A DNA stretch of 33,151 nt from a bacterium (GTDB lineage: Bacteria > Patescibacteriota > CG2-30-54-11), in NCBI GenBank assembly GCA_029573015.1, contig JAKQHK010000135.1, forward strand, positions 1-33,151. The letters run 5' to 3'. The translations under genes and the position numbers were made by a program. The notes beneath the pieces were generated by a model, which was not told where the DNA came from, did no database searches, and saw only the letters and a list, made by a program, of their open reading frames with translations. Each line of letters begins with the position of its first letter. Within the stretch, counting starts at the first letter, position 1. Shown here piece by piece: positions 18,484 to 27,756 of the stretch.

Positions 18484-19830
18484 TCAGGTTGCCGCAGGTC
18501 CAGAGCTTACTCGAGCAAGGTTACCAAATCTAGTCTGTTCCTTTTTAAATACCAGCTCGATTTTTCCGGTCGGACCGTTGCGGTGCTTGGAGATGATGAT
18601 ATCAGCAAGACCTTTACGCGGCGTCTCAGCATTGTAATATTCTTCACGGTAAATAAACATCACCACATCCGCATCCTGTTCAATAGACCCGGATTCCCGC
18701 AGATCAGATAATTGCGGAATCTGCGGATGCCGACTCTCAACCGCACGTGACAACTGAGAACATGCCAAAACAGGAATATTGAGTTCACGCGCCAGGCCTT
18801 TGAGTGATCGTGAAATCTCTGAAATTTCCTGCACCCGGTTTTCCTGATAGCGGCCGTAGCCGGTCATAAGCTGAAGATAATCAACGATGAGCAACCCCAG
18901 CCCCGCTTCTGCCTGCAGCCGGCGGGCTTTGGCTCGCATCTCCAGCACATTGATACCTGGTGTGTCATCGATATAGAGCGGCGCCTCTCCAAGCACACCC
19001 ATCGCATCACCGATCTTGGCAAAATCTTCCTCTTTGAGAAATCCAGTTCGCAAGGCCCGCAGATCAATGCCTGCTTCCGAGCAGAGCAGACGATCCACCA
19101 GCTGGGCTTTAGACATTTCCAGGCTGAAAACACCCACGGGCATATGCGTTTTCGCAGCCACAGTTTGCGCAATATTGAGAGCCAGGCTGGTTTTCCCCAT
19201 GCTCGGCCGGGCAGCTAAAATAATTAAATCAGCCCGCTGCATGCCACCGAGCATGGTGTCGAGATCAGCAAATCCCGTTGCTATACCGCTGATCGATCCC
19301 TTGTTCTTGTGCAGCTCATCGATACGGTCAAATGTTTCGGATAGGATTGAACGTATCGGACTAAAGTCAGTTCTGATATTTTTCTGGGATATGGCGAAGA
19401 TAACCTGCTCTGCCTCGTCCAGCGTCTGCGGTATCTCTTTCTCTTCATCATAGGCCATCTCAGCTATCCGTTCGGCACCTTCGATAAGTTTGCGCAGGAT
19501 AGCTTTCTGCCGGACGATCTGGCCATAATGCTCGACATGCAACGCCGCCGGCACTCCGTTGACCAGATCACTCAGATAGGTAGCTCCTCCAACAATTTTG
19601 AGTTTTTTCTGTTTGCGCAGGGCTTCGGTCAGGGTAACCAGATCGACCGGAATACGCTTTTCAAAAAGTTCAATAATCGCTTCGTAGATAATCGTATGTG
19701 CTTCTTTATAAAAATCATCCGGCTGCAGGATCTCGATCGTCTTCAGTACTGCATTCTTGTCGAGCAAAAGCGCTCCGAGCACGGATTCTTCGGCTTCGAT
19801 GTTTTGAGGGGGCAATTTTAAATTAGCCAT
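18484..19830 (-). CDS. dnaB: replicative DNA helicase
   Basis: DnaB (448 aa), the hexameric fork helicase. The N-terminal primase-interacting domain begins LPPQNIEAEESVLGALLLD. The RecA-like domain has Walker A ARPSMGKTS (207-215), Walker B LLIVDYLQLM, the SLKGLARELNIPVLACSQLSR segment with the Q/arginine-finger region, and DLRESGSIEQDADVV. A TTG-initiated frame adds four residues. ATG 19830 is preferred on the usual MANLKLPPQN start, with AGGA close upstream. No intein interrupts the P-loop or other inteinisation hot spots. It follows mrdA by 44 bp, which hold a candidate extended -10. Confidence 0.96.
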   Translation of the reverse strand: MANLKLPPQNIEAEESVLGALLLDKNAVLKTIEILQPDDFYKEAHTIIYEAIIELFEKRIPVDLVTLTEALRKQKKLKIVGGATYLSDLVNGVPAALHVEHYGQIVRQKAILRKLIEGAERIAEMAYDEEKEIPQTLDEAEQVIFAISQKNIRTDFSPIRSILSETFDRIDELHKNKGSISGIATGFADLDTMLGGMQRADLIILAARPSMGKTSLALNIAQTVAAKTHMPVGVFSLEMSKAQLVDRLLCSEAGIDLRALRTGFLKEEDFAKIGDAMGVLGEAPLYIDDTPGINVLEMRAKARRLQAEAGLGLLIVDYLQLMTGYGRYQENRVQEISEISRSLKGLARELNIPVLACSQLSRAVESRHPQIPQLSDLRESGSIEQDADVVMFIYREEYYNAETPRKGLADIIISKHRNGPTGKIELVFKKEQTRFGNLARVSSGPAAT

Positions 19831-19860
19831 ATTCCTGCCCAACTAGAGCTAAGCCGTATA

Positions 19861-19869
19861 ACTATACCA
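19861..19869 (-). promoter_or_regulatory. candidate extended -10 promoter for dnaB
   Basis: On the minus strand TGGTATAGT fits an extended -10 (TG-N-TATAGT, hexamer 19866-19861) between the mrdA stop and dnaB. No good -35 is visible, so it is tentative. It would let dnaB be expressed independently of the T-box-led transcript. Confidence 0.3.
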
Positions 19870-19874
19870 AAGCC

Positions 19875-21833
19875 TCAGCGGTTCTCAAAGTACCACTGCA
19901 GAATTTTTTTTGTTACCGGTACCGCTGCCTTCGATCCCTCACCCCCCTGCTCTACAAGAACAACCGTAGCGATACGGGGCTGGGAATAGGGAGCAAAACT
20001 GATAAACCAGGCATGATCCTGCTTCCGCTTGTCGTGCTGGGCAGTGCCTGTCTTGCCTGCCACTTCTACGGGCAGATCACGCAACAGATACGCTGTTCCT
20101 CCTTCCGCCGCGACCGCCCCCCGCATCCCCTCCCGCACAACAGCCAAATATGCAGGATCGACCAGATCAGCAGCCTGAGCAACCGGCTCAACCACCTGTC
20201 CCCCGGCATAATCAGTAGCCTGAATTTCTTTGACGAAGTGCGGCCGGTACAGCGTACCTCCGTTGGCAATGGCTGCGGTGCCACTGACGAGCTGTAAGGG
20301 TGTTATAAGACTGTATCCCTGCCCGATTGCCATATGGGCGGTATTTCCCCAATACCACTCTTCGCCTTGTGCGGCAAAGTCGCTCTCAGCCGGAACCTGT
20401 CCGACTTTCTCTCCATCGATATCGATTGCAGTATTGACCCCTAAACCGAACTTTTGGGCATACCACTTGATCTTTTCCGAGCCCAGCCCTGCCTGCCGCT
20501 CGTATCCGGCACCGATTTCATAGAAAAAAACATCACATGATTTGGTCAGGGCTCCGGTCACGGAGAGGCTGCCATGGCTGCCGCCGTATTGTCCGTATAC
20601 CCAGCAGGGAAATCTACTGCCGCCGACCTCCAATAACCCCGGATCATGCACGGTCGTGCTGCGGGTAATGATACCCTCCTCAAGCGCCGCCGCAGCTACA
20701 AAAGGCTTGAATGTCGATCCGGGCGGATACAGGCCGGCAATTGCCCGGTTGAACAGGGGATTACCCGCCTCGGGCGCATAGAGCGCTGCCAGGGCATCAG
20801 AGCTTAAATAGCCGGAGAAAAGATTGTTGTCATAGCTTGGATAGCTTACCAGGCTCAGGACTTCACCGGTCTGCACATCCATGACAATCGCCACTCCGGC
20901 GATGCCGTCATTTTGCTCAATACCTTCCCTGAGTGCCTCATAGGTTATTTGCTGCAGGGAAGCATCGATAGTCAGGGTCAGACTGTGTCCTTTTTGGGGA
21001 TTCTTGGTCGGGTCCACACGCAAGTTGATCTGCTGCCCGGTAGCGTCGATTTCCACCTCCCCTTCTCCCTTGACACCCCGTACATATAATTCATAACTTT
21101 TTTCTACTCCGTCACGACCGATCAAATCGCCGGGTATATAATACTCACCTAGTTTGGTTTCCAGTTCTGAATCGCTGATTTCACCGATATACCCGAGCAC
21201 ATGGGCAAATGGAGCACCAAAGACGTAGCGACGCACCGGGGTAATCTCGATCTTCAACCCTGGATACTCATCCGCATCGCTTAAAATCGCCAATGCTACC
21301 GACCGATCCAGTTCCAGCTGCAGGGGAATCCGGTCTTTTTGATCTTTGAATGCCTCGTCAATTCTGGTTTGCAGTGCCGTCGCATCGTAGGGCAACAGCT
21401 CAGCAATTCTTGTGATGTAGGACGGCAACGCATCGTCATCAGGCAAGGCTGCTGTTTCGATTACCGGCGTATAGCGTGGTTCATTGGTTACCAGCGCCAT
21501 GCCGTACCGGTCATAGATTATCCCGCGATTCGGGCTGATCTGGTGAAAACGCTGATAATTGACATCGGCTTTTTTGCGCAGTTCCTCCCCATGAATAATC
21601 TGCAGATCAACTAAACGCAGGAAAAGCAAACCAAAAAAAATGATGAACATGCCATGCAATACCGGCAGCCGGCTCCTGCCTTTGAAATCCTCATGTGCTA
21701 CCCCGGTATCGGTAAAGGGGATTAGGTTTTGCTGCCAATCTCGCGCTTTCACCTGCTTGGGGCGTTTTTCTTTCCCGAGACTGGTATCAACACGTGCCCG
21801 GCTTGCTAACAAGCGGGAAAAAGGATTTTTCAC
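19875..21833 (-). CDS. mrdA: penicillin-binding protein 2 (peptidoglycan transpeptidase)
   Basis: Class B PBP (652 aa from GTG 21833), the elongasome DD-transpeptidase. A basic cytoplasmic N-terminus precedes one TM helix (LPVLHGMFIIFFGLLFLRLV), then the pedestal domain with SPNRGIIYDRYGMALVTNEP. The transpeptidase domain has S-x-x-K as PGSTFKPF (Ser373, Lys376), S-x-D as KSCDVFF and K-T-G as AGKTGTAQH (594-596). An ATG at 21893 would overlap mreD by 55 bp. The GTG lies just after the mreD stop with GGAG about ten bases upstream and is the likelier start. No rodA is adjacent, although mrdA-rodA pairs are common. Confidence 0.95.
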   Translation of the reverse strand: MKNPFSRLLASRARVDTSLGKEKRPKQVKARDWQQNLIPFTDTGVAHEDFKGRSRLPVLHGMFIIFFGLLFLRLVDLQIIHGEELRKKADVNYQRFHQISPNRGIIYDRYGMALVTNEPRYTPVIETAALPDDDALPSYITRIAELLPYDATALQTRIDEAFKDQKDRIPLQLELDRSVALAILSDADEYPGLKIEITPVRRYVFGAPFAHVLGYIGEISDSELETKLGEYYIPGDLIGRDGVEKSYELYVRGVKGEGEVEIDATGQQINLRVDPTKNPQKGHSLTLTIDASLQQITYEALREGIEQNDGIAGVAIVMDVQTGEVLSLVSYPSYDNNLFSGYLSSDALAALYAPEAGNPLFNRAIAGLYPPGSTFKPFVAAAALEEGIITRSTTVHDPGLLEVGGSRFPCWVYGQYGGSHGSLSVTGALTKSCDVFFYEIGAGYERQAGLGSEKIKWYAQKFGLGVNTAIDIDGEKVGQVPAESDFAAQGEEWYWGNTAHMAIGQGYSLITPLQLVSGTAAIANGGTLYRPHFVKEIQATDYAGGQVVEPVAQAADLVDPAYLAVVREGMRGAVAAEGGTAYLLRDLPVEVAGKTGTAQHDKRKQDHAWFISFAPYSQPRIATVVLVEQGGEGSKAAVPVTKKILQWYFENR

Positions 21834-21838
21834 GTCCG

Positions 21839-22333
21839 TTACGCTCCAATCGTATCCTGTTGCTGATAAAAGGCATGTTCTATCCACTTGCATAAAGGCA
21901 AACAGAGTATGAGCAGACCTGCATTAATGATCGTCCTTGACAATACTACCTGTAGAAAATAATGCACTGGGTTTAAATCAATACCTGAAAGCATATATGC
22001 AAAAAGAACGAGGATTTCAAACAATAGGCACCACAATCCTCCCCAGAGTATAACGAAACTGATATTCCTCCGAAAAACATCGTAGGACAGGAGGCTGCTG
22101 CCAAACGCGCTCACCACATACATGAGAGGGAGAAAACCAAAATGGATCGTGGAAAAAACAGACAGGAGCATCCCGGCAACAAACGCTAAAGGGAGTGCCT
22201 CCTGTCCCCCCCGGATCACGCTGATACTGATGATACCCACGAGAACGCTATCCATGATAATAGTATTGCTCATCAGCTGGGGTATGAGGGTAACCTGAAA
22301 AAAAATCAGAAACATGATTAGAAGATAATACAT
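21839..22333 (-). CDS. mreD: rod shape-determining membrane protein MreD
   Basis: A 164-aa polytopic inner-membrane protein with five or six hydrophobic helices and almost no polar regions. It is identified mainly by position between mreC and PBP2 and by size, as MreD is poorly conserved. The segment QEALPLAFVAGMLLSVFSTIHFG (44-66) fits the family pattern of an acidic/polar turn between helices. It begins 27 bp after mreC and is followed within five bases by mrdA. Confidence 0.88.
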   Translation of the reverse strand: MYYLLIMFLIFFQVTLIPQLMSNTIIMDSVLVGIISISVIRGGQEALPLAFVAGMLLSVFSTIHFGFLPLMYVVSAFGSSLLSYDVFRRNISFVILWGGLWCLLFEILVLFAYMLSGIDLNPVHYFLQVVLSRTIINAGLLILCLPLCKWIEHAFYQQQDTIGA

Positions 22334-22360
22334 ACCTGCGCTCTCTAACCGGGAATATGG

Positions 22361-23182
22361 CTATTGTTCAAATGCCGTAATGATCACAACCTGTTCCAGA
22401 CGTTCAAAATCTACCGCAGGCAATACATCTGCCTTCTGAAACAATTCATCCGGCGCCTGGTATACGGCCTGGACATACCCGATCAGCAAACCAGCCGGAA
22501 AGATGTCGCCGATACCTGAAGTTACAATACGGTTGCCACGTGTCACCTCCACGCCCTGGGGAATCAATTCCATGATCAATCCCTGTCCAAGCTCCTGTCC
22601 TTTCACCATCCCGTCCACCCGGCTGGTCTGAAGACGAGCCGGCACTTCCAGACTGGCATCCAGCAGGAACGTGACGCGTGCGCTGTGCTCGTACACCTCT
22701 GAAATATAGCCGACCAGTAACCCCTCTGAAACAACCACGGGCATCCTGACCGCTACCCCGTCGGCTTGCCCGCGATTCACCGTGATCACACGTACAATAC
22801 CCGTAGGCTCCCGGGCGACCACCCGGGCATTGAGGGTATCATACCCCTGCTTTTGTTCCAAGCCCAGCTGTTCGCGTAAATGTTGATTTTCTATCTGCAA
22901 TTCTTCGATCTGGGCGTTCTCTGCCTCCAGACTTTTCAGCCGCTCGGAGAGAAGCTTGTTTTCCTCGGTAAGATTGCCGATATTGCCGATAAAAGTACCC
23001 ACACCGAGCACTTTCCGTGAAAAACCATCGAAAAATTGTGCTACGGGTATACTGACCGTATCCAACGCGTTTCTTACCAGGTAGTCAGCCCGGACTTCAG
23101 CCAAAAAGATAACCACGATGCTGAGCAGGACGAGGAAAACCGCTTTACCGAAATTATTGAGACTGCGCCAGAATGACAACAT
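22361..23182 (-). CDS. mreC: rod shape-determining protein MreC
   Basis: MreC (273 aa), the extracytoplasmic scaffold joining MreB to PBP2. One N-terminal TM helix (KAVFLVLLSIVVIFLAEV, about 14-31) is followed by a coiled coil (NLTEENKLLSERLKSLEAEN and on, about 69-108) and two beta-rich domains with VVAREPTGIVRVITVNRGQADGV, VSEGLLVGYISEV and VTSGIGDIFPAGLLIGYV. It lies 53 bp after mreB. The ATG at 23182 has no recognisable Shine-Dalgarno, unlike mreB and proS, so its expression may depend on coupling or a leaderless start. Confidence 0.95.
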   Translation of the reverse strand: MLSFWRSLNNFGKAVFLVLLSIVVIFLAEVRADYLVRNALDTVSIPVAQFFDGFSRKVLGVGTFIGNIGNLTEENKLLSERLKSLEAENAQIEELQIENQHLREQLGLEQKQGYDTLNARVVAREPTGIVRVITVNRGQADGVAVRMPVVVSEGLLVGYISEVYEHSARVTFLLDASLEVPARLQTSRVDGMVKGQELGQGLIMELIPQGVEVTRGNRIVTSGIGDIFPAGLLIGYVQAVYQAPDELFQKADVLPAVDFERLEQVVIITAFEQ

Positions 23183-23235
23183 GCTTTTGGTATGCTAATA
23201 ATAAACACCTGAATGGTTTCCTGGGTGCATACAAG

Positions 23236-24300
23236 CTAGGTGGGTAGTTTTTCATATTTTGAGGTGACACAGACACGGTCGAGCAATTCAATATCGTCAA
23301 GCAAAATGCCTGTACCCCGGGCTACGCAGGTAAGCGGATCCTCAGCAACCGTAACCGGCATCTTGCATTCCTGGCTGAGCAGGCTGTCCATTCCCCGGAT
23401 CTGCGCTCCTCCCCCGGCGAGGAAAATGCCTCTATCGAGTATATCAGCAACCAGTTCTGGTGGTGTTTCCTCGATCGTTGACTTCACCGCATCCACGATC
23501 AATCCGAGCGACTCACGCATCGCCTCACGCACCTGCTCGCTGGTGATGCGTTCCGATCGGGGCAAACCGCTGAGGACATCCCGTCCCTTGATCACGGATT
23601 CAAGCTCTTTTTTCAGGGGAAACGCGGATCCGATATTGATTTTCACCTCCTCGGCCATGCGCTCACCAATCACCAGATTGAGCACATTACGCACATAGAG
23701 CATAATATCTTCGTCAAGCTTGTCGCCGGCGATGCGGATTGAGCGGCTGGCAACGACACCACCGAGAGATATAACTGCAATCTCAGCTGTCCCGCCGCCC
23801 ATGTCCACAACCATACAACCACCGGCATCACCTACGGGCAAACGTGCTCCAATGGCAGCAGCCATGGGTTCTTCGATCAAATACACCTTGCGGGCGCCGG
23901 CATTGATCGCGGCATCATGCACTGCCCGCTTTTCAACCTCCGTAACCCCGGAGGGTATCCCGATCACTACACGCGGGTTGGGGAAAAATTTAAATTTGGC
24001 ATAGCCTTCTACGGCTTTACGAATAAAATACTTGAGCATTTGCTCAGTAACTTCATAGTCGGAAACCACTCCGCTGCGCAGGGGCCGTATTGCCCGGATA
24101 TCGAGCGGCGTCCTGCCAACCATCTTTTTTGCTTCTGCACCGATCGCCAGTACATCCTTGGTCTTGTCGCTGATGGCGACAACCGACGGCTCCTGGATCA
24201 CGATGCCGTGTCCACGCACATATACCATGCTATTGGCTGTCCCGAGATCGATACCCAGATCCAAGGAGGCATTTTTAAAAAAAGAGTCAAATAATCCCAT
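23236..24300 (-). CDS. mreB: rod shape-determining actin homologue MreB
   Basis: MreB (354 aa), the membrane-associated filament that positions lateral wall synthesis. It has the phosphate-1 loop DLGIDLGTANSMVYV, IRPLRSGVVSDYEVTEQML, VVIGIPSGVTEVEKRAV, LIEEPMAAAIGARLPV, the phosphate-2 loop VVDMGGGTAEIAVIS and the adenosine motif FLAGGGAQIRG. The amphipathic N-terminus MGLFDSFFKN is a plausible membrane-binding helix. AAGGA sits seven bases before the ATG. It begins 12 bp after proS, so proC-proS-mreBCD-mrdA look like one transcript. Confidence 0.97.
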   Translation of the reverse strand: MGLFDSFFKNASLDLGIDLGTANSMVYVRGHGIVIQEPSVVAISDKTKDVLAIGAEAKKMVGRTPLDIRAIRPLRSGVVSDYEVTEQMLKYFIRKAVEGYAKFKFFPNPRVVIGIPSGVTEVEKRAVHDAAINAGARKVYLIEEPMAAAIGARLPVGDAGGCMVVDMGGGTAEIAVISLGGVVASRSIRIAGDKLDEDIMLYVRNVLNLVIGERMAEEVKINIGSAFPLKKELESVIKGRDVLSGLPRSERITSEQVREAMRESLGLIVDAVKSTIEETPPELVADILDRGIFLAGGGAQIRGMDSLLSQECKMPVTVAEDPLTCVARGTGILLDDIELLDRVCVTSKYEKLPT

Positions 24301-24312
24301 ACTGTAGTCCTT

Positions 24313-26067
24313 CTATGATAACAAACCCTGCTGATCCCGCAACCAGGCTGACATGACATCCTGATCGATCAACTCTCCTTTACCTTCGCTGACACGTCGT
24401 TTAACCTCAATTTTTTTGTCTGCTACGGTGCGTGGACTGATGACAAACCGGTACGGTATGCCAATCAGGTCTGCATCAGCGAACTTGACACCGGCAGAAC
24501 AGTCGATCCGGTCATCGAACAGCACCTCCACGCCCTGGTCAATTAACTCCCGGTAAACTGCTTCTGCATTTTCAATGACTTCCGGCTTGTCACCCAGCAC
24601 CAGCAAGTGTACGGTAAAAGGGGCAACGAGCTCCGGCCAAACCATACCTTTATCATCATGGGATATTTCCACGATCGTGGCGAGCGTGCGACCGATACCA
24701 ATGCCATAGCACCCCATGTAATAGAGCTTGTCCTGGCCGTCGGTATCGACAAAGGCAGCCTGCATCAGTTTACTATAGTGGTAACCGAGTTGGAATATGT
24801 TCCCCACTTCAATGCCACGACGCTCCTCCAGCTTCTTCCCCTCCAGCGTATAGCCTGCCTGAGCAATGCTGATGTCTCCTTCGATTTCGTGTTTAAAATC
24901 ACGTCCGTAGTTCACATAACGTGAATCAGTAGTTTTTTCCTTTTGCCCGCCAATGAAATTCCGCACATACTTCAATGCTTCATCTGCCACATAGATCACC
25001 CGGCAATCACGATCACTACTGCGGGTCTTGCGGGGTTTGATGAACTCATGCCCCCAGCAATGCACATAGCCATGCTTGGTCCCGATTGCTTTCAGATCAT
25101 TTTCATCAGCATCAATCAACTGACCAGTCAAGCCAAGCAGATGTTCAAGCTTCGTCTGGTTGATCTGCATATCACCCCGGGTGGCGGCGATAACGATATC
25201 TCCTTCGGTGGTGCGATACACAACATTTTTTAAATAGCGCCAGAGCGGTTCTTGATAATATTTTACGTTTTCCTCCATAGTGCAGACCCATTCCGGCTGG
25301 TCGACTATCCGGAACTCCTCAAGCGGTTCATCGGGATTCTTAGGTTGATAATCAAAACGCGCCACGTCTTCATGCGCAGCATATTGGCCATCCTCGGTAA
25401 TCAGGAAGCGGCTTTCCCCCACTTCGCTCTCCACCACGAACTCATGGCAGTATTCTCCGCCGATATAGCCGTTATCTGATTCGACTACGACTGTCGGCAG
25501 CCCGAGCCGGTCAAAAATGTGTGTATAAGTCTGCCACATATTTTCATATTCTTTTTTGAAATGCTCCTCGTCAACGTCAAACGAATACGCGTCCTTCATG
25601 AGAAATTCCCGGACGCGCAGCAGACCGCCCCGCGCCCGCATCTCATCCCGGAATTTCTGAGAAAACTGGTACAGATTAAACGGCAGGTCCCGATAGCTTA
25701 CCTTCATACTGCGCACAACGTCGACGAACATTTCCTCCGCCGTGCCCCCGAGCGCGAATTCTGCCCCCCGCCGGTCAGTGACTTTCATGAGTTCAAACCC
25801 GGTGGTATTGGTTCGGTTGGTCTCCTTCCACAGCTCCAGGGGATGTAAAACCGGAGAGATCATTTCCTGCGCTCCGGCACGATTCATCTCATCCCGCACC
25901 ACATCGATGATCTTATTCTGCACCCGCATCCCGAGCGGCATGAGGTAATAGCGTCCGGCAGTGCTCTCCCGGATAAAACCCGCCTGATAGAGCAGTTTGG
26001 TGCTGATATTGTTTGCCTCCCGTGGAGGCTCGCGCCTTGTCTTGGGAAAAAGGGTGGAATACCGCAT
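24313..26067 (-). CDS. proS: prolyl-tRNA synthetase
   Basis: Class II ProRS of the bacterial type (584 aa), charging tRNA-Pro. It has MRYSTLFPKTRREPP at the N-terminus, motif 2 around FRDEMRARGGLLRVREFLMKDAY, an inserted editing-type (INS) domain over roughly residues 225-405, motif 3 MGCYGIGIGRTLATIVE and the C-terminal anticodon-binding domain (TVHLLVLGD to VFDD-like LFDDRIDCSAGVKFADADLIG). The TxE loop reads LGGTAEEMF, where many ProRSs have LGPTHEE. GGAGAG lies just before the ATG at 26067. It is downstream of proC and, with it, of the proline-type T-box, which makes a self-consistent circuit. Confidence 0.96.
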   Translation of the reverse strand: MRYSTLFPKTRREPPREANNISTKLLYQAGFIRESTAGRYYLMPLGMRVQNKIIDVVRDEMNRAGAQEMISPVLHPLELWKETNRTNTTGFELMKVTDRRGAEFALGGTAEEMFVDVVRSMKVSYRDLPFNLYQFSQKFRDEMRARGGLLRVREFLMKDAYSFDVDEEHFKKEYENMWQTYTHIFDRLGLPTVVVESDNGYIGGEYCHEFVVESEVGESRFLITEDGQYAAHEDVARFDYQPKNPDEPLEEFRIVDQPEWVCTMEENVKYYQEPLWRYLKNVVYRTTEGDIVIAATRGDMQINQTKLEHLLGLTGQLIDADENDLKAIGTKHGYVHCWGHEFIKPRKTRSSDRDCRVIYVADEALKYVRNFIGGQKEKTTDSRYVNYGRDFKHEIEGDISIAQAGYTLEGKKLEERRGIEVGNIFQLGYHYSKLMQAAFVDTDGQDKLYYMGCYGIGIGRTLATIVEISHDDKGMVWPELVAPFTVHLLVLGDKPEVIENAEAVYRELIDQGVEVLFDDRIDCSAGVKFADADLIGIPYRFVISPRTVADKKIEVKRRVSEGKGELIDQDVMSAWLRDQQGLLS

Positions 26068-26136
26068 TATCTCTCCTTACTAAGCTTGTGTAGCATAACA
26101 AGAAACCCTGCCAGCTGCAACGCATGCCGGGCAGAT

Positions 26137-26931
26137 TCAACGGACAAGCAAACGCGCCTGCTCATACGCTGCCTGCACGGCAGCAGCGCAATGCTCCTGG
26201 CACCCCAGATCATCAAGCCTGGCCAGGGCCGCTGCTGTGGTACCTCCTTTCGAGGTTACCTGCCGGCGCAACTCGCTGACATCCAGGGCGCTCTCTGCAA
26301 GAAGGGACGCAGCGCCGATACATGTCTGCCGAGCCAGCTCGTAACTTGTTTGCAGATCAAGCCCAAGATCAGCGCCGGCCTTGGCAAGAGCTTCAACCAA
26401 ATAGAAAAAGTATGCCGGTCCGCTGCCGCTGACAGCGGTAACCCTATCAATATCAGCCTCCTGCTCGAATCTGATCTGTTTACCGAAGCTTGCAAGCATG
26501 GTCTGCACCATAGCCCGTTCGTCAACAGTAACCTCAGGGCTTGCATACCATCCGGTCATTCCCTTGCCGATCCGGGCTGGAGTATTGGGCATGGCGCGTA
26601 CCACTTTTGCCGACATATCCTTAAGCGATGTTTTTATGGTCATACTTGATACGCCCGCAGCGATAGATATCCAGAGCTTCCCCTCTATCTGTGTATCAGC
26701 AAGCGGTTGCAGTAATTTCGCCAGCACCTGGGGCTTGACCGCAAGCAGGATGATGTCAGCCTCATTCACTGCCTGTCGCAGGTCAGATGTTATCTGACAG
26801 TCAAATGCCTTTAACTTATCCTGATCCGTATCGCACGCGATCAGATCATTGCGGGAGAATACGCGGGTGTGCAGCAGGGACTGCAGGATTGCCCCTCCCA
26901 TGTTCCCGACACCGATTATGGCTGTTTTCAT
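26137..26931 (-). CDS. proC: pyrroline-5-carboxylate reductase
   Basis: P5C reductase (264 aa), which reduces pyrroline-5-carboxylate to proline with NAD(P)H. It has the Rossmann motif IIGVGNMGGA (5-14), ILLAVKPQVL (61-70), RAMPNTPARIGKGMTGW and the signature VSGSGPAYFFYLVEALAKAGADLGL, followed by QVTSKGGTTAAAL. No proA or proB is in the window, so P5C may come from elsewhere (ornithine or scavenging) or the genes lie outside. It begins about 25 nt after the attenuator hairpin of the T-box leader and is followed 69 bp later by proS. Confidence 0.96.
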   Translation of the reverse strand: MKTAIIGVGNMGGAILQSLLHTRVFSRNDLIACDTDQDKLKAFDCQITSDLRQAVNEADIILLAVKPQVLAKLLQPLADTQIEGKLWISIAAGVSSMTIKTSLKDMSAKVVRAMPNTPARIGKGMTGWYASPEVTVDERAMVQTMLASFGKQIRFEQEADIDRVTAVSGSGPAYFFYLVEALAKAGADLGLDLQTSYELARQTCIGAASLLAESALDVSELRRQVTSKGGTTAAALARLDDLGCQEHCAAAVQAAYEQARLLVR

Positions 26932-26955: not shown

Positions 26956-26988
26956 AAAAAAACCCTCATCCGCCGAAGGACGAGGGTT
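26956..26988 (-). terminator. T-box attenuator (intrinsic terminator)
   Basis: On the minus strand AACCCTCGTCC pairs with GGATGAGGGTT around a short loop and is followed by seven T. Its 5' arm is shared with the T-box antiterminator, giving the expected mutually exclusive structures. Confidence 0.92.
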
Positions 26989-27143
26989 CCCGTGGTACCA
27001 CCTTGATTGTTCATGTGAAATGAACGCTTGATGCTGCTAAAGGAGCAACCCTTACTGCTGCGGGGTGGGGGTGACAGATACTGTTGATTTTCACTGTTTT
27101 CAACTCACTGCGGTTTTCTGTCCCGTGATCCCGCCTGTCACTC
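26956..27143 (-). promoter_or_regulatory. T-box riboswitch, proline (CCC) specifier, transcription-attenuation type
   Basis: The leader lies between the lemA stop and proC. The T-box core reads AAGGTGGTACCACGGG (27004-26989), and the antiterminator 3' side CCTCGTCCTT (26985-26976) pairs back to AAGG and to CGGG. Upstream, the distal stem I segment AGTGAGTTGA...GTGAAAATCAAC matches the AGNGAG / GTG-A loop pattern. I fold the base of stem I as GCGGG (27134-27130) with CCCGC, then an internal loop, then GACAGA with TCTGTC. The 3' side of that loop is ACCCCCA, so the codon before the conserved purine is CCC (27069-27067), a proline codon. A hairpin GTTCAT/ATGAAC (stem III) precedes the core. A competing 7-bp pairing GTGACAG/CTGTCAC also exists. 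Uncharged tRNA-Pro should turn on proC-proS and perhaps the mre genes. Confidence 0.92.
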
Positions 27144-27145
27144 AA

Positions 27146-27177: not shown

Positions 27178-27756
27178 TTACTGAGCAGGTTTTTCTTCGG
27201 TCTTGGGAGCGTCGCTGAAGCTTACTTTGACTGCTTCCCGGGCTGCTTCCTCTGCTTCAAAGAACTCCTCGGCCTTGAAACCAAACATCCCAGCGATTAA
27301 TACCGTGGGGAATACCTGGATCTTGGTATTGTAATCGAGAACATTGGTATTGTAGAACTGACGGGCATAGGCAATTTTATCCTCAGTATCGGAAAGTTCC
27401 GACTGCAGCTGCTGGAAATTCGCCTGTGCCTTGAGGTCAGGATACGCTTCCGCTACCGCGAACAAGCTTTTCAGGGCACCGGTCAGCATGTTATTAGCTT
27501 CTGCCTGCTCGGCAACGCTGCCGCCCGCCATAGCCGCAGTGCGTGCTTTGGTCACATTTTCAAAAACTGTTTTTTCGTGAGAAGCATAACCTTTGACTGT
27601 TTCCACGAGATTGGGGATGAGATCAAAACGCCGTTTCAGCTGTACGTCAATACCTGCCCAGGCTTCCTTGACCCGCATGCGGGCTGTAACCAGACCGTTG
27701 TACGTCAACCAGAGGAACACTACAATTACGCCAATGATACCAAGTACCCAAACCAT
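27178..27756 (-). CDS. lemA: LemA family membrane protein
   Basis: LemA (192 aa). A single N-terminal TM helix ([22 protein letters not shown]) precedes a helical domain with the family hallmarks: [35 protein letters not shown] (27-61), the alanine-rich [39 protein letters not shown] and a charged tail. N-terminus out / C-terminus cytoplasmic topology is reported for the family, but its role is not established. No adjacent htpX or TPM-domain gene is present, although such partners are frequent. AAGGAG lies six bases before the ATG. Its stop is about 30 nt upstream of the T-box. Confidence 0.95.

Follow-up and report, generated by a model that had tools for sequence, protein, structure and literature searches.

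A proline T-box leader of reduced architecture precedes proC-proS in a CPR-like bacterium

T-boxes have chiefly been described in Firmicutes; Actinobacteria, Chloroflexi and Deinococcus contribute some, as do two Proteobacteria (PMC2494555). The closest described systems are the transcriptional class I T-boxes of Rfam family RF00230, such as those of B. subtilis tyrS and glyQS. The K-turn is nearly universal without being obligatory and stem II is an optional domain; both, together with the S-turn, are thought important for geometry, and it has been asked if a T-box lacking the K-turn could function at all (PMC7583486, which also covers the K-turn and linker of the glyQS type). The TBDB search for class II T-boxes covered only Actinobacteria and those class I hits whose stem I is truncated. 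Gene regulation in CPR bacteria is poorly known; in a review of these bacteria from 2024, riboswitches appear solely as a tool (PMC11665869), and our provisional literature search, with most subscription papers outside it, found no paper linking T-boxes with CPR or Patescibacteria. Provisionally, T-boxes in CPR bacteria are unreported. The leader described here, found in the window (the whole 33,151-nt stretch of DNA analysed), is a T-box with a proline codon as specifier upstream of proC-proS; it is a real proline T-box of reduced architecture and of the long-stem-I type (Table 1).

An earlier note had read a canonical proline T-box at this locus and had proposed a search with the RF00230 covariance model. 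Infernal returned a match over the full model length (model positions 1-219) at 41.8 bits, with E-values of 4.2e-8 in the window and 3.8e-8 across the whole genome, and the distal stem I, CCC, stem III, T-box core and terminator named in that note all lie where it had placed them on the minus strand. The score is less than half the Rfam gathering threshold of 93 bits, so the leader is missed by a routine Rfam scan, which at that threshold lists two tRNAs only in the window. Stem III is preceded by AAGCG (27029-27025) and followed by AA (27008-27007), in keeping with the RRRxG-stem III-AA rule for T-boxes (PMC7583486). Upstream of it a putative IIA/B pseudoknot would, by complementarity alone, pair AAGG (27053-27050) with CCUU (27043-27040) and GUUGC (27049-27045) with GCAGC (27037-27033), four and five pairs respectively. 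The antiterminator is built from AAGGUGGUACCACGG and the downstream CUCGU and CCUU, with helix A1 joining AAGG (27004-27001) to CCUU (26979-26976), helix A2 joining ACGGG (26993-26989) to CUCGU (26984-26980), and UGGUACC (27000-26994) as the bulge. Bases 26989-26976 are common to antiterminator and terminator, making the two mutually exclusive, and since the terminator uses the antiterminator's bases transcription control is the likely output. A promoter scan upstream of the leader found nothing above chance.

Table 1. Features of the proline T-box leader and its neighbouring genes in the window (G001, relative from another genus of the same family).
Feature	Position	Strand	Basis
Whole T-box leader, proline type	26956-27142	minus	RF00230 match 27140-26973, plus terminator adding 26972-26956
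Stem I basal helix, 5' strand GCGGG	27130-27134	minus	pairs with 27064-27060; G001 ortholog; MFE with 5' end 27145
Stem I middle helix, 5' strand GACAG	27118-27122	minus	pairs with 27077-27073
First distal T-loop AGUGA	27105-27109	minus	sequence; consensus AGAGA (PMC7583486)
Stem I distal helix, 5' strand GUUGA	27100-27104	minus	pairs with UCAAC 27087-27083
Second distal T-loop UGAAA	27089-27093	minus	sequence; consensus UGxRA (PMC7583486)
Stem I distal helix, 3' strand UCAAC	27083-27087	minus	G001 ortholog comparison
Stem I middle helix, 3' strand CUGUC	27073-27077	minus	G001 ortholog comparison
Specifier CCC (proline), then A27066	27067-27069	minus	specifier-loop position in fold; proline codon in 10/10 proline-gene leaders
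Stem I basal helix, 3' strand CCCGC	27060-27064	minus	fold and G001 ortholog comparison
Candidate stem IIA/B pseudoknot	27033-27053	minus	read from sequence
Stem III GUUCAU/AUGAAC	27009-27025	minus	folding
T-box core AAGGUGGUACCACGG	26990-27004	minus	sequence
UGGU, pairing with tRNA-Pro 3' ACCA (A73)	26997-27000	minus	3/3 tRNA-Pro genes end ACCA
Antiterminator	26976-27004	minus	RF00230 alignment
Intrinsic terminator, 12 bp, -19.6 kcal/mol, then U run	26960-26989	minus	scan and folding
lemA, upstream neighbour	27178-27756	minus	PF04011; 82% identical ORF in G001 (locus L213)
proC, pyrroline-5-carboxylate reductase	26137-26931	minus	TIGR00112, 247 bits (cut-off 197)
proS, proline--tRNA ligase	24313-26067	minus	TIGR00409, 503 bits (cut-off 307)
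mreB, mreC, mreD-like ORF, PBP2-type transpeptidase, dnaB	18484-24300	minus	Pfam/NCBIfam; short gaps

The description as canonical is too strong. The RF00230 alignment passes from stem I to IIA/B with no intervening hairpin, so stem II is absent; no AGUA/GAA S-turn is recognisable in the specifier loop; and by eye no K-turn can be made out, since below 27134/27060 no lower helix is bordered by GA/GA, nor is one seen in the G001 ortholog. These missing elements, the low bit score and an ambiguous fold are what might be expected of a decaying T-box that no longer responds to tRNA and in which the terminator alone still lowers transcription. We consider this improbable, as stem I pairing has been maintained in G001 across eight double-sided changes and one single-sided change, with 15 of 16 pairs kept (a hand-made alignment to one ortholog) and the sole broken pair at the outer edge. 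The codon, UGGU, the RRRxG-stem III-AA arrangement, the antiterminator and the terminator are likewise intact. Indeed, the G001 leader has no visible K-turn either, which indicates that its absence is not a one-off loss, and because the K-turn is not obligatory (PMC7583486) T-box membership is kept despite it; a hairpin is nevertheless present at the stem II position in G001. The proline leaders offer a natural test of T-box function without a K-turn, the question raised in PMC7583486.

Two alternative stem I pairings had been pointed out previously, and both are indeed possible in single-sequence folding, depending on the 5' end: the minimum-energy structure is the canonical stem I when the RNA begins at 27145, and GUGACAG/CUGUCAC when it begins at 27142 (fold of 27142-26953). 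The latter could be the working stem I, with the specifier-loop CCACC base-pairing in the off state to GGUGG of the T-box, but this is very improbable. Evaluated explicitly, the canonical helices GCGGG/CCCGC, GACAG/CUGUC and GUUGA/UCAAC give -15.0, against -8.4 for GUGACAG/CUGUCAC with GUUGA/UCAAC; no counterpart of the alternative was seen in the G001 leader, whose specifier loop GACCCGC is without CCACC. The compensatory changes that the earlier note had suggested seeking are found in the canonical helices. All five middle-helix pairs are kept in G001, four of them changed on both sides, as are all five distal-helix pairs, three of them changed on both sides. The basal helix also keeps its pairing: of its five pairs, the outermost carries a change in each strand. 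The next pair outward (G-A in the window leader) is not formed. This conservation through double changes favours GCGGG/CCCGC with GACAG/CUGUC, and the stem I so defined carries the distal double T-loop (AGUGA and UGAAA). The CCACC-GGUGG pairing itself appears in one fold of the window leader (27068-26998, minus strand) and was not seen in the G001 ortholog.

The canonical fold places CCCAC on the 3' side of the specifier loop, and CCA, one base beyond CCC, is a proline codon as well. A single sequence does not fix the frame in so C-rich a loop, and as ACCCCCAC also holds ACC (Thr) and CAC (His) the T-box might read another tRNA. It is highly improbable that it does so, given that the targets are proC and proS and that a proline codon, CCC or CCU, occupies the specifier position (assigned by eye) in ten of the ten proline-gene leaders examined in the phylum. 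These comprise the CCC of the window genome's proC leader (G000), GACCCGC in the proB leader of G001, and proS leaders with CCC-A (G009), GAACCCG (G021, G247, G330), UUCCCA in an apical loop (G205) and GAACCUA (G273 and two leaders of G348), so that CCN is kept, as the note had proposed to check, in every homologous or analogous proline leader found. Histidine also fits badly, its C73 not matching UGGU; bacterial tRNA-His normally has C73. The window genome encodes tRNA-Pro with anticodons GGG, UGG and CGG. The agreement of codon and targets noted previously thus stands: CCC is followed by A, the genes are proC and proS, and UGGU is complementary to the ACCA of tRNA-Pro.

Since lemA ends 35 nt upstream, the structure could simply have been the lemA unit's ordinary terminator, resembling a T-box by chance, a reading of next to no probability that we judge already excluded by the full-model E-value of 4e-8 and the syntenic ortholog with covariation. 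The two proline genes were assigned with NCBIfam equivalog models (TIGR00112 and TIGR00409). In G001 a single contig carries lemA, a T-box (59.2 bits) and proB-proA-proC-proS in that order, and the proS-mreB-mreC adjacency is kept in both G001 and a further relative, G002. A misbinned foreign contig was considered and ruled out, lemA and ProS being 82% and 78% identical to those of the sister genus with the same gene order. No proA was found in the window genome assembly (1.35 Mb, 69% complete). Our ProC search covered the order and class levels, and as the class is represented by only three genomes in the set used, deep orthology is unavailable. Sampled genomes of the same phylum are mostly 0.5-1.3 Mb and, among named ProS proteins, the one closest to the window's belongs to Ca. 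Uhrbacteria (58% identity), which together indicate a CPR/Patescibacteria host, agreeing by inference with the CPR-like host suggested earlier. In that Ca. Uhrbacteria genome, too, a trpS-like ORF is preceded by a T-box (E=1.5e-12).

Computation shows that the leader belongs to the T-box family, that stem I has undergone compensatory change, that codon, tRNA and targets agree, and that antiterminator and terminator overlap; the locus is very probably a transcriptional T-box riboswitch for tRNA-Pro controlling proC-proS. We infer tRNA binding, sensing of charging and actual attenuation. Stem I of the nascent leader would show CCC, then A, to the anticodon of tRNA-Pro(GGG), while the distal double T-loop would stack on the tRNA elbow. 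The free ACCA of an uncharged tRNA would pair with UGGU and hold the antiterminator, allowing RNA polymerase into proC-proS; with proline-charged tRNA this end would be blocked, the 12-bp terminator would form and transcription would stop. Most likely, then, the switch turns on the proline-making and proline-loading genes when proline is low. The proline T-box heads a run of proC-proS-mreB-mreC-mreD-like-PBP2-dnaB (18484-26931, minus strand), and to judge from this gene order the genes from mreB to dnaB are possible read-through targets. That the T-box functions although K-turn, S-turn and stem II are missing, and that antitermination also reaches past proC-proS into mreB-mreC-mreD-PBP2-dnaB, is a rather unlikely combination; if true, scarce charged tRNA-Pro would raise cell-elongation genes in a CPR-like bacterium.

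T-boxes are not confined to this locus. Three more are present in the window genome with fitting codon and target logic, among them a trpE leader with a UGG specifier and a UGGC bulge. A search with RF00230 at E<=1e-4 found matches in 126 of the 381 phylum genomes sampled, and in 111 of the 346 good ones, so that the earlier view of such a leader as uncommon in a CPR-like host does not hold, about one third of the sampled phylum genomes matching. Only 13 lie above the Rfam cut-off, and scores below it would explain how nearly all of the phylum's T-boxes came to be overlooked. The named controls that gave a match in this search are B. subtilis, Thermus, Deinobacterium, Corynebacterium and Lactococcus. 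In a sample of 167 leaders the downstream genes are mainly aminoacyl-tRNA synthetases (most identified by similarity to a few named representatives). Locus and survey together indicate that sensing tRNA charging through RNA is widespread in this phylum.

Some of these leaders have unusual readings or forms. In the window genome a leader with a specifier read as CUC (Leu) has the unusual target of a vorB-like 2-oxoacid oxidoreductase gene lying downstream (L001/L215, G000:C48). CGC (Arg) is read in another leader of that genome (L003/L214, G000:C85) and, within the same family, in L078, L080, L084 and L085; CGC-type leaders precede lysX-like, argF-like and argC genes, and in the window genome a 192-aa ORF. 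Two proS leaders (L158 and L151) and the Ca. Uhrbacteria trpS-like leader (L104) have a very short stem I that closes directly above the specifier loop with a hairpin whose cap is a tetraloop, for example GCGAAAGC; this form is intermediate between the long and the ultrashort.

A further set of leaders (L086, L016, L147-L218 and others) has an ultrashort stem I with the codon in the apical loop: AUC before ileS, GUC before valS, and GAC or AAC before Asp/Asn-type synthetase genes. AAC (Asn) loops lie upstream of genes that by similarity are aspartate--tRNA(Asn) ligase-like or bacterial aspS-like (L184, L190, L153, L199, L201 and similar leaders), which would fit indirect Asn-tRNA formation. 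Sorting the hairpins by regular expression proved unreliable, picking competing hairpins (25 of 45 matched), and an alignment (A1) and a covariance model built from the aligned leaders (R1, threshold E<=1e-4) were used instead. Across 15 aligned leaders 92.1% of cells pair and 12 of 16 pairs show double-sided changes; covariation scores 0.644, compared with 0.182 for shuffled alignments, both alignment and structure having been chosen by the analyst. R1 matches 109 of 381 phylum genomes, with none in the window's class, window genome included, and RF00230 or R1 matches 162 of 381. In twelve named genomes R1 gave one strong match, the Williamsia ileS leader (E=1.6e-8), and otherwise none below E=0.08; the phylum's ultrashort leaders thus share the actinobacterial class II T-box architecture. 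By a loose scan without shuffled control, 154 of 167 leaders are followed by a terminator-like hairpin and a T run, which makes transcriptional output likely, and the ultrashort leaders are apparently transcriptional rather than translational. The window leader is not of this kind, its stem I being long and having no apical-loop specifier.

The window leader thus resembles the class I transcriptional T-boxes of B. subtilis tyrS and glyQS in its distal double T-loop, its specifier codon followed by A, stem III with RRRxG and AA, the UGGN bulge and the antiterminator/terminator pair, and in having proline biosynthesis and proS as targets. It differs in its score, 41.8 against 93 bits, in having no stem II, recognisable K-turn or AGUA/GAA S-turn, and in belonging to a phylum missing from the T-box list of PMC2494555. 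Glycine T-boxes of the glyQS type share the absence of stem II. These retain the K-turn and have no IIA/B, whereas the window leader apparently keeps IIA/B and has no recognisable K-turn. The ultrashort class II translational T-boxes of actinobacterial ileS have the same sensing principle, but the window leader has a long stem I and a side-bulge specifier. The phylum's own ultrashort leaders differ from actinobacterial ileS class II in that terminators mostly follow them, giving them a transcriptional rather than a translational appearance.
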